A stretch of DNA of 64,000 nt, taken from the NCBI RefSeq assembly GCF_000378985.1, contig NZ_KB905370.1, forward strand, positions 1,035,330 through 1,099,329. Direction: 5' to 3'. A model generated the notes under the pieces. It made no database searches. It was not told the origin of the DNA and was given only the letters and a program-made list of their open reading frames with translations. The DNA is from Ensifer sp. BR816. GTDB taxonomy: Bacteria > Pseudomonadota > Alphaproteobacteria > Rhizobiales > Rhizobiaceae. The stretch's first letter is position 1. Each line of letters starts with the position of its first letter. This document shows positions 33,915-36,269 of this stretch, one piece after another. Both the position numbers and the translations under genes were made by a program.

Positions 33915-36269
33915 ATGGCCATGACCAAGGGCTGGTTCTCCCATGAGCATGACGGGATTTCCAGAAGAGATCTCCTGGTAATGGCGGGAGCCGCCGCCGC
34001 GCTCGCAAGCTATAGCCATAGTGCAAGAGCGGCGCTTGGTGGAGGCAGCTTCACGATCGACGAGGTCAAGCAGGGCGAGGACGTCTTTGCCTATATCAGC
34101 AGGATCAAGGGCGGGTTTGACCAGACTGCCTACCAGCAGGTGATAGGCGCCGCGAATGAGTTCAAGGAGGGAGATCAAGCGATCGGCGTGAGCGCCGAAA
34201 ACGAGACGACACGACGGAATGCTCGCGCCCTTCTGACAAATACCAAAATCAATGACCTCTACCAGCGCCCGCTGTTCGAGGATGATCTGCAAAAATTGAT
34301 CTGGCAGACCACGGACCGGGCCCAGTACGAAAAGGTCAAGGACTGGACCATGGGACAGTTGAAGGTGTTTCTTCTGAGGGAACCGGAGGAAAACATCAAA
34401 GGTGTCATGAATGGCCTGACCAGCGACACGATCGGCCTTGTCCCGAAACTGATGAGCAACGAGGAGCTGGTCGCCCTCAGCCAGAAAATCTTCAATGTCA
34501 TGCCCGGCACCAGGATGGGGGCGAAGGGATACATGGGCGCGCGGATCCAGCCCAATTCTCCCACTGACCACCCGGACGACATCGCCTGGCAGGTTTTCGA
34601 TGCGTTCTCCTATGCAACCGGAGACATCGTCATCGGCACCAACCCGGTGGACAGCACGGTCGCGAGCGTCGTCGCGGTCGAACGTGCCCTGAAGGACATC
34701 GTCGATGCGTTCAAGCTTGCCGACGTGATCCCCTGGTGTGTGCTCGCGCACATCGATGTCCAGGGTGAGGTCAACGAAACTTTCCCGGGAACGGTTTCCA
34801 CGATGTTCCAGAGCCTTGCCGGAACAGACGACTGCAACAAGATCTTTGATATCACCAACGAGAAGATCCTGAAGTATGCGCGCGCGAAGAATGGGGAAAG
34901 ATATGGCCTCTACTTCGAAACCGGACAGGGCTCGGAATTCACCAACGGCGTAGCAAACGGCGTCGACATGATGGTGCTCGAGTCCCGGAAATACGGCTTC
35001 AGCAGAGCGGTGGGACTTGAACTCGCCAAGGTGCAGCCGAGCGGCGCCTGGCTTCATGTCAACGATGTTGCCGGCTTCATCGGGCCGGAAGTCTTCAAGA
35101 GTCGCGAACAACTGGTGCGATGCTGCCTCGAAGACATGGTCATGGGCAAGCTCCATGGTCTCACCATCGGCCTCGACATTTGCACGACCCTGCACATGAC
35201 GGTCAGCCTTGAAGACCTGGATTGGTGCCAGGATCAGATCATGCCGGCCAATCCCGCCTATCTGATAGCTCTGCCGACCAAGAACGACCCGATGCTGAGC
35301 TATCTTACCACGTCGTTCCAGGACCACGTGCGATTGCGGGGAAAGTTTGGCTTCAAGGTCAACGATGCGATGTGGGACTTCTACAAGCGGATCGGAATCG
35401 TTGGTGAGAACGACGCCTACACCGAGAACTATGGAGATCCTCTCTGGGTTTACTACCAGTACCGTCTCGCCAAGGGTGATAAGAGGCCCAAGGACGCGAT
35501 CTACGCGGAAGGCCGTGAGAAGATGCGGGAAGTCGAAGGGAGAGGTGTCGACCTCGCGACAGGGCACGGAGAGAATATCTGGGATCTCAATCCATCGCTC
35601 GCAGCCAAGGTGAAGGGCCTCTACGACGACGCCAAGCTGTCCCTGTGGGCCGAACTCACGCCCGCCTTCATCTCCGGCGTTCCTGATGTCGTGCCCGTCC
35701 GCACCCTGTCCAAGGACCGCAACGACTACATAGCCCACCCGAACACGGGCGAAACGCTGAGCCCGGAAGCCCTGGTAGAGATTGAGAAAATCAGGGATTC
35801 CTGGGGTGACGACATGCCCAAGGGCCAGATCGTCATCTCGGACGGCCTGAACGCCAAGGCCATCATGGACGACGGACATCTCGCACCCTACCTCGAGGAG
35901 ATGCGCCGGCTGCTTGCCGAGGCCGGTGTCACCATGAGCGACAAGAACATCATGGTCACCAGCGGCAGGGTGCGAGCCGGCTATCGGATCGGCGAAGTGC
36001 TTTTCGAGAAAGCGGATCCCGAGACGATCAGAGGCATTCTCCACATCATCGGTGAACGGCCCGGAACCATGCACCACGCCTATTCGGTCTACATCACCGT
36101 CGCCAAAGGCAAGCGATGGTCGCAGAAGAATATCGATCACGATATTACGAAACTTGTCAGCAATGTCGCAGACACGGCCTTGCCGCCAGAAGAGGCCGCC
36201 CGGGAAACCTTGACCATTATCCGGGAGATCGTCGGCAAGGAGGTGAACGGCAGCCGTCGCTATGGGTAG
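33915..36269 (+). CDS. Fused EutB-EutC ethanolamine ammonia-lyase with a Tat signal
   Basis: AdoCbl-dependent conversion of ethanolamine to acetaldehyde and ammonia would be expected. The 784 residues combine both subunits. Residues ~45-505 match EutB, with all the known substrate contacts kept: Arg210/Gln212 (GARIQPN), Asn243 (VIGTNPV), Glu335 (YFETGQGS), Asp421 (GLTIGLD). Residues ~540-784 match EutC (GQIVISDGLNAKAI, SGRVRAGYRIGEVLF, IGERPG). The N-terminus is a textbook twin-arginine signal: S16RRDLL, hydrophobic VMAGAAAALAS, cleavage near ARA-39. E. coli has separate, cytosolic subunits. Two starts (33915, 33921) are possible; the second has better ribosome spacing and keeps the signal. 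No EutA reactivase is nearby. Confidence 0.9.
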   Translation: MAMTKGWFSHEHDGISRRDLLVMAGAAAALASYSHSARAALGGGSFTIDEVKQGEDVFAYISRIKGGFDQTAYQQVIGAANEFKEGDQAIGVSAENETTRRNARALLTNTKINDLYQRPLFEDDLQKLIWQTTDRAQYEKVKDWTMGQLKVFLLREPEENIKGVMNGLTSDTIGLVPKLMSNEELVALSQKIFNVMPGTRMGAKGYMGARIQPNSPTDHPDDIAWQVFDAFSYATGDIVIGTNPVDSTVASVVAVERALKDIVDAFKLADVIPWCVLAHIDVQGEVNETFPGTVSTMFQSLAGTDDCNKIFDITNEKILKYARAKNGERYGLYFETGQGSEFTNGVANGVDMMVLESRKYGFSRAVGLELAKVQPSGAWLHVNDVAGFIGPEVFKSREQLVRCCLEDMVMGKLHGLTIGLDICTTLHMTVSLEDLDWCQDQIMPANPAYLIALPTKNDPMLSYLTTSFQDHVRLRGKFGFKVNDAMWDFYKRIGIVGENDAYTENYGDPLWVYYQYRLAKGDKRPKDAIYAEGREKMREVEGRGVDLATGHGENIWDLNPSLAAKVKGLYDDAKLSLWAELTPAFISGVPDVVPVRTLSKDRNDYIAHPNTGETLSPEALVEIEKIRDSWGDDMPKGQIVISDGLNAKAIMDDGHLAPYLEEMRRLLAEAGVTMSDKNIMVTSGRVRAGYRIGEVLFEKADPETIRGILHIIGERPGTMHHAYSVYITVAKGKRWSQKNIDHDITKLVSNVADTALPPEEAARETLTIIREIVGKEVNGSRRYG

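Follow-up and report, generated by a model that had tools for sequence, protein, structure and literature searches.

A fused ethanolamine ammonia-lyase-like gene with a predicted export signal

We analyzed a stretch of 64,000 nucleotides from Ensifer sp. BR816 (contig NZ_KB905370.1, positions 1,035,330 to 1,099,329; hereafter the window), in which an open reading frame at positions 33915 to 36269 joins the two subunits of ethanolamine ammonia-lyase (EAL), EutB and EutC, in one chain behind a predicted twin-arginine signal peptide. The features of this gene are:

33915..36269, + strand: fused EutB-EutC ethanolamine ammonia-lyase-like protein, 784 amino acids (782 from the start at 33921)
33921..34031, + strand: predicted twin-arginine signal peptide; n-region SRRDLL, hydrophobic core, putative cleavage after SARA at residue 39
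34128..35423, + strand: EutB-like domain, residues 72-503; contacts R210, Q212, N243, E335 and D421
35589..36251, + strand: EutC-like domain, residues 559-779; RV and GERPG motifs

Pfam recognized both domains in the one frame (EutB at residues 72-503, 464.7 bits against a cut-off of 25; EutC at residues 559-779, 106.1 bits against 25.8) and the NCBIfam EutB model was also matched above its cut-off (629.6 against 554 bits), which bears out the single-chain fusion proposed in the initial annotation. The nearest solved structures were the heavy and light chains of EAL, covering residues 74 to 508 or 510 and residues 591-779, respectively, and this is the sole EutB that we found in the 6.95-Mb genome. 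Canonical E. coli K-12 EAL (PDB 3abo, 2qez) shares both domains, the five EutB contacts, and the EutC GERPG and RV motifs, but it consists of two separate chains and carries no signal with an arginine pair (RR). Against the EutB profile, the window protein scored 467 bits versus 673-740 bits for near-full-length canonical copies from Rhizobiales.

The N-terminus of the window protein ends its signal in GISRRDLLVMAGAAAALASYSHSARA, followed across the putative cleavage site by ALGG, with RR at residues 17-18. As the initial annotation had it, the sequence SRRDLLVMAGAAAALASYSHSARA reads as a textbook twin-arginine signal: RR, a moderately hydrophobic core, and an A-x-A-type end (signal end and cleavage site placed by eye), no more than 45 residues from the start, in a genome that also encodes TatC (234 bits) of the twin-arginine translocation (Tat) system. 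In several orthologues the position of Met1 is occupied by other residues (e.g., I, N, or V), and in most of these a ribosome-binding-like stretch precedes Met3, suggesting that translation probably starts at 33921 and not at 33915; the export signal is retained with either start.

Export signals are conserved across one clade, while the route changes

We scanned 84,980 species genomes and obtained 42 distinct loci. Among plasmid records, 148 matched and 25 copies reached at least 80% identity; two of these copies (L045 and L046) entered the counts. A profile search of 297 genomes of the phylum of genome G318 gave matches in 26, 14 of them at 1137-1527 bits (three already in the set). Dropped before counting were L032, which lies at a contig edge and has no N-terminus, and L078, L079, and L080, which repeat L022, L024, and L039; L064 was left out of the tree, and L147 and L148, having no N-terminus, were left out of the signal tally. 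The comparable clade members number 55, of which 29 are alphaproteobacterial; L030 and L044 are two copies in one genome.

All 55 N-termini are of the export type, 45 twin-arginine and 10 Sec-like when sorted by eye (two of the latter, L090 and L091, being ambiguous), and four further members outside the 55 also appeared Sec-like by eye. Homologues that lack the segment and start downstream of it were not seen among the 55. We then applied a simple rule, RR followed by an uncharged hydrophobic core, which was passed by 47 of the 55 (the 45 Tat-sorted members plus L090 and L091, which are tallied as Sec-like), by none of 42 canonical EutB proteins or six unexported fusions, and by 14 of the 477 genes called elsewhere in the loci. 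L090 passes only when read from starts further upstream, where the ribosome-binding stretch is weaker or absent. Since the Tat-sorted set was chosen by its RR, its complete passing (45/45) is no independent test; the contrast with the 48 unexported relatives is one. When RR was not demanded, an uncharged core was present in 55/55 clade members versus 2/42 canonical loci (L059 and L111). Tat signals are expected to have less hydrophobic cores than Sec signals, and the best hydrophobic 13-mer scored 1.42-2.30 in the Tat group versus 2.48-3.04 in the Sec-like group. On these sequence-based calls, predicted export is a conserved trait of the clade, while its route, Tat or Sec, changes.

Hosts and phylogeny

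The alphaproteobacterial hosts are Sinorhizobium, Ensifer, Rhizobium, Mesorhizobium, Phyllobacterium, Bradyrhizobium, Microvirga, and other Rhizobiales; the remaining members come from metagenome-assembled genomes (MAGs) titled deltaproteobacterial or from genomes of the G318 phylum, except that L040 bears just the title Proteobacteria and L041 is a verrucomicrobial MAG. In a midpoint-rooted tree of 103 EutB domains, built by a quick method and without bootstrapping, the clade formed a single group with a Shimodaira-Hasegawa-like approximate likelihood ratio test (SH-aLRT) value of 100 and a branch of 1.66, so that the fused form with an N-terminal RR, raised in the initial annotation as a possible clade, is one in which 45 of 55 members are of the twin-arginine type. 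The alphaproteobacterial copies are nested among other clade members, which suggests transfer. Seven Tat-type members with an MSRRKFC-like N-terminus are placed among Sec-like members (SH-aLRT 92-93 on the joining branches), implying that the export route switched at least once. The nearest outsider, L104, is a signal-less fusion on a long branch; fusion may thus have arisen before export. L104 (L124:6056-8176, genome G413) shares its genome with a Sec-type copy, L086.

A separate branch of the tree holds Methylocystis-type fused EutBC proteins (L077 in G238, and L108), which are single chains like the window protein but have no signal and form an independent fused lineage. L077 (5618-7840) has EutA (485 aa) directly upstream and a replaced equivalent of E. 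coli EutB D362 (GMAPCYTLH); L108 (3935-6130) has no EutA annotated alongside.

The gene is rare in the family of the window genome (6/297 genomes; 1/5 sampled in its own genus), and in a sample of the L041 phylum it occurred in 1/194, the genome already known. Canonical EutB was not found in 39 of the 41 genomes carrying the clade gene, some of which are incomplete MAGs; both occur together in G314 and G321, and also in G686. A phage origin was considered and set aside, as the six phage records that match all do so at less than 60% identity. Many S. meliloti plasmid records list no gene under an 86% identical copy; such a missing entry may reflect a pseudogene flag on the fusion or nothing at all, the PLSDB gene table being incomplete.

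Catalytic residues and selection

R210, Q212, N243, E335, and D421 of the window protein correspond to R160, Q162, N193, E287, and D362 of E. coli EutB, which we take to be substrate contacts. These five are invariant in 55/55 clade members, in agreement with the intact contacts noted initially in the window protein. In EutC, R206 is kept in 55/55 members; V207, GERPG, and Y241 are each retained by 53 or 54 of them, the contig-cut L090 and L091 ending before or within this stretch. Compared with seven relatives, the ratio of nonsynonymous to synonymous substitution rates (dN/dS) was 0.069-0.102 overall, a sign of purifying selection, and 0.18-0.86 within the signal segment. C403, C404, and C438 are present in 55/55 exported members, at positions occupied by A344, G345, and L379 in canonical EutB; that these clade-specific cysteines would pair in a disulfide in the envelope is speculative.

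Gene neighborhoods of the lyase

The gene immediately upstream of the lyase is:

32752..33786, + strand: zinc alcohol dehydrogenase, AdhP type, 128 bases upstream of the lyase in the same direction

The alcohol dehydrogenase that the initial annotation placed upstream is thus an AdhP, and it is likely the partner for the aldehyde product. An AdhP-like match occurs in 26/29 alphaproteobacterial loci (several cut by locus ends, those of L006 and L025 being short pieces), as a direct upstream tandem in 11/29, the window included. On S. meliloti pSymA, the order is CBS protein, AdhP, phosphoketolase, histidine phosphatase, GH94 protein, glucoamylase-like protein, then lyase. FixK/FNR sites with up to two mismatches showed no excess in the window (15 found, 15.3 expected); with up to one mismatch, 3/16 regions upstream of AdhP had a site where about 1.0 would be expected, and perfect sites precede AdhP in L020 and the CBS gene in L045.

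For the Sec-type members and near kin we compared 16 loci (the 10 Sec-like-sorted loci, L143 to L146, and the fragments L147 and L148, counted here as near kin), many of them short contigs, with neighbors identified by Pfam for some copies and by tblastn or eye for the rest. An aldehyde:ferredoxin oxidoreductase (AOR) lies beside or near the lyase in 9/16, parts of a FecCD/BtuCDF-type ATP-binding cassette (ABC) transporter in 7/16, a membrane protein of about 262 aa in 8/16, and a PotD-like binding protein in 3/16. A Gcw_chp-like protein, presumably an outer-membrane barrel, is present in 7/16, with some copies scoring under the Pfam cut-off. The 262-aa membrane protein, conserved among these loci, matched no Pfam family (copies in L082 and L083) and no NCBIfam family (copy in L114); at L114:12122-12919, L118:8364-9161, and L146:7099-7899 it separates the Sec-type lyase from the ABC transporter. 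Judged by their families, the neighbors fit an aldehyde-making B12 enzyme.

Among Tat-type loci, AOR lies further downstream of the lyase in L022, and genes for DUF3300 and DUF2950 proteins are directly upstream of it in the deltaproteobacterial L024 and L035. This adjacent DUF3300 and DUF2950 pair recurs near the lyase in deltaproteobacteria and rhizobia (L024:5072-7442, L035:5699-7920, L008, L027, and L046). Close to the Tat-type copy at L023:1473-10358 are a radical SAM/SPASM protein and, by eye, a sulfatase-like protein.

EutA is missing from most tested genomes, with or without the exported enzyme

The initial annotation had remarked on the lack of the EutA reactivase. A search of the whole window genome gave only a partial match of 27.4 bits to EutA (positions 119-194 of 475), so the absence stands; its standing as a special feature does not. 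A full EutA was absent from 29 of the 30 Rhizobiales genomes with canonical EutB that were tested out of 80 EutB-positive ones (only G058 has one) and from 8/9 genomes of the G318 phylum with canonical EutB; apart from the 30 Rhizobiales genomes, 12 genomes with non-exported EutB (nine two-gene, three fused) were tested, and a full EutA was found only in G498. EAL of A. baumannii is reported to function without EutA (PMC9426561). Because nearly all tested genomes with canonical EutB lack it, a missing EutA says little, and we rejected it as a sign of an unusual enzyme. Full-length EutA-like proteins were found in 5/41 clade-bearing genomes and in one of 11 more that were tested (G589). In G328 there are two (L125:4516-6024 and L126:13513-15018), each adjoining a cupin-like protein (by eye), within an apparent aromatic-acid catabolic cluster (by eye) on a contig other than that of the lyase; full EutA-like pairs also occur in four other clade-bearing genomes.

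A proposed extracytoplasmic ethanolamine ammonia-lyase

We favor, as the probable reading, that the fused EutB-EutC is an EAL working outside the inner membrane, its localization, cofactor, and substrate all being read from sequence. That the protein is exported seems very probable to us, that it is an active adenosylcobalamin (AdoCbl) lyase likely, and that ethanolamine is its natural substrate somewhat less so. With EutB and EutC in one chain, a single signal peptide would carry both halves across the membrane. In the window genome, the Tat system would export the lyase, with AdoCbl loaded in the cytoplasm beforehand or bound in the periplasm, whereas Sec-type members would have to bind it in the periplasm. 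The periplasmic lyase would convert ethanolamine, e.g., released from the head groups of phosphatidylethanolamine or derived from the host, to acetaldehyde and ammonia, and judging from the gene neighborhoods, acetaldehyde would diffuse in to AdhP in rhizobia or to AOR in anaerobes. EutA would play no part in rescuing inactivated cobalamin; the BtuCDF-like transporter encoded next to the lyase in some Sec-type lineages could bring it back in to be re-adenosylated.

The fusion, signal, ligand contacts, clade, and alcohol dehydrogenase link of the earlier interpretation are kept in this scheme. Its requirement that AdoCbl be loaded before Tat export is not, because the same clade has Sec-like members: if their signals work as Sec signals, folding and cofactor uptake would take place outside, and the argument from folding before export fails for the clade as a whole. 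As the initial annotation remarked, a B12-dependent radical enzyme, which normally works inside the cell, is unexpected in the periplasm. Reductive dehalogenases (RdhA) are corrinoid enzymes, although they perform no AdoCbl radical chemistry and their fold is unrelated to that of EAL. In one report, 27/29 RdhA of one genome carry a twin-arginine motif (PMC4918011), which likens them to the window protein and gives a precedent for a Tat motif on corrinoid enzymes; their Fe-S clusters set them apart.

Going further, we tentatively propose, as something that may well turn out otherwise, an AdoCbl radical lineage outside the cytoplasm in which Sec-type members load the cofactor in the periplasm, a dedicated BtuCDF-like transporter takes spent cobalamin back in, and repair proceeds by transport and not by an ATP-dependent reactivase. 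If true, ethanolamine breakdown would not be confined to the cytoplasm or a microcompartment; an AdoCbl radical enzyme could work where no ATP is available for reactivation; comparing the Tat-type enzymes of a single family with its Sec-type ones would put cofactor loading before or after export to a direct test; and nodulating rhizobia and anaerobes could draw nitrogen and carbon from phosphatidylethanolamine by an additional pathway in the envelope.

Several observations weigh against the extracytoplasmic lyase. We know of no AdoCbl radical enzyme outside the cytoplasm. The split into 45 Tat and 10 Sec-like signals was made by eye, with the RR rule applied afterwards, and the signal calls come from that rule and from inspection by eye. 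The NCBIfam EutC equivalog cut-off was missed (78.5 against 230 bits), for which reason we class the protein as an EAL variant and not as an ordinary member. Only 69/125 canonical-invariant columns are kept in EutB and 12/28 in EutC, so that substrate or cofactor use may have shifted in the clade. For two ATPases and two permeases of the ABC transporters, the corrinoid ABC ATPase and BtuC were the top NCBIfam models, but none of these hits reached its cut-off, and siderophore and heme families scored close behind; for two binding proteins another ABC family was best, and the BtuF match was weak (24 bits) or none. No B12 transporter was recognized near the window lyase, and at Rfam gathering thresholds no cobalamin riboswitch was found in window positions 22000-46000.

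The strongest competing explanation, though an unlikely one, is that the protein is an exported AdoCbl radical lyase whose natural substrate is another vicinal amino alcohol or diol-like envelope compound. It would account for the identity of only 29-36% between the clade and canonical EutB, for the clade-fixed changes near D362 in sequence (E. coli N367 and Q373 are L in all members, and Y365 is mostly T or S) together with H410, which is Q in all members, and for the PotD-like binding protein near three of the Sec-type or near-kin copies. It does not sit easily with the invariance of the five positions that we take to be amino-alcohol contacts, or with the adjoining aldehyde enzymes, which fit acetaldehyde. 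Strains of Pelobacter carbinolicus, whose EutBC neighbors are similar, have moreover been reported to use ethanolamine for growth, and choline as well (PMC3543383).

The protein might alternatively be exported but have lost its radical activity, serving as a periplasmic corrinoid- or ethanolamine-binding protein. In favor of this are the 56/125 canonical-invariant EutB columns that are lost and the extracytoplasmic setting, which is unfavorable to AdoCbl turnover; the catalytic set that is invariant in 55/55 members, a dN/dS of about 0.1 across both domains, and aldehyde-metabolizing neighbors in two different contexts make it improbable. Least probable of all is a cytosolic protein with a fortuitous or non-functional RR extension: the RR rule has its background of 14/477 gene calls and an uncharged core does occur upstream in two canonical loci, but RR plus core persists in 47/55 members while other signal residues drift, the remaining members have Sec-like signals, and RR plus core is absent from all 48 unexported relatives.

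Relation to published fused EutBC proteins

The fused form has been published. P. carbinolicus encodes EutBC1 and EutBC2 (Pcar_0491 and Pcar_0467) in a genome without eutA, adjoining AOR, binding proteins, and a corrinoid-type transporter (PMC3543383). It thus resembles the clade in the fusion, in the similar neighbors, and in the lack of eutA, and from the gene order we infer that the Pelobacter proteins belong to it. The section on these proteins treats the neighbors as uptake genes and mentions neither export nor a signal peptide of EutBC; the paper's signal-peptide passages concern other proteins, and the term twin-arginine does not occur in it (PMC3543383). A literature search, with most subscription journals outside its scope, returned no paper naming both ethanolamine ammonia-lyase and twin-arginine, and by title and abstract no exported EutBC among the matches listed.

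Other features of the window

Directly downstream of the lyase, positions 36846-39333 hold a remnant or copy of an insertion sequence, which we take to be IS66-like. The gene at 46510-47790 (- strand), whose product is presumably solute-binding-protein-like, adjoins ABC transporter genes and has an RR signal of its own (SRRQFLIGAG). An aldo/keto reductase at 31115-32143 (- strand) likewise passes the simple RR rule.
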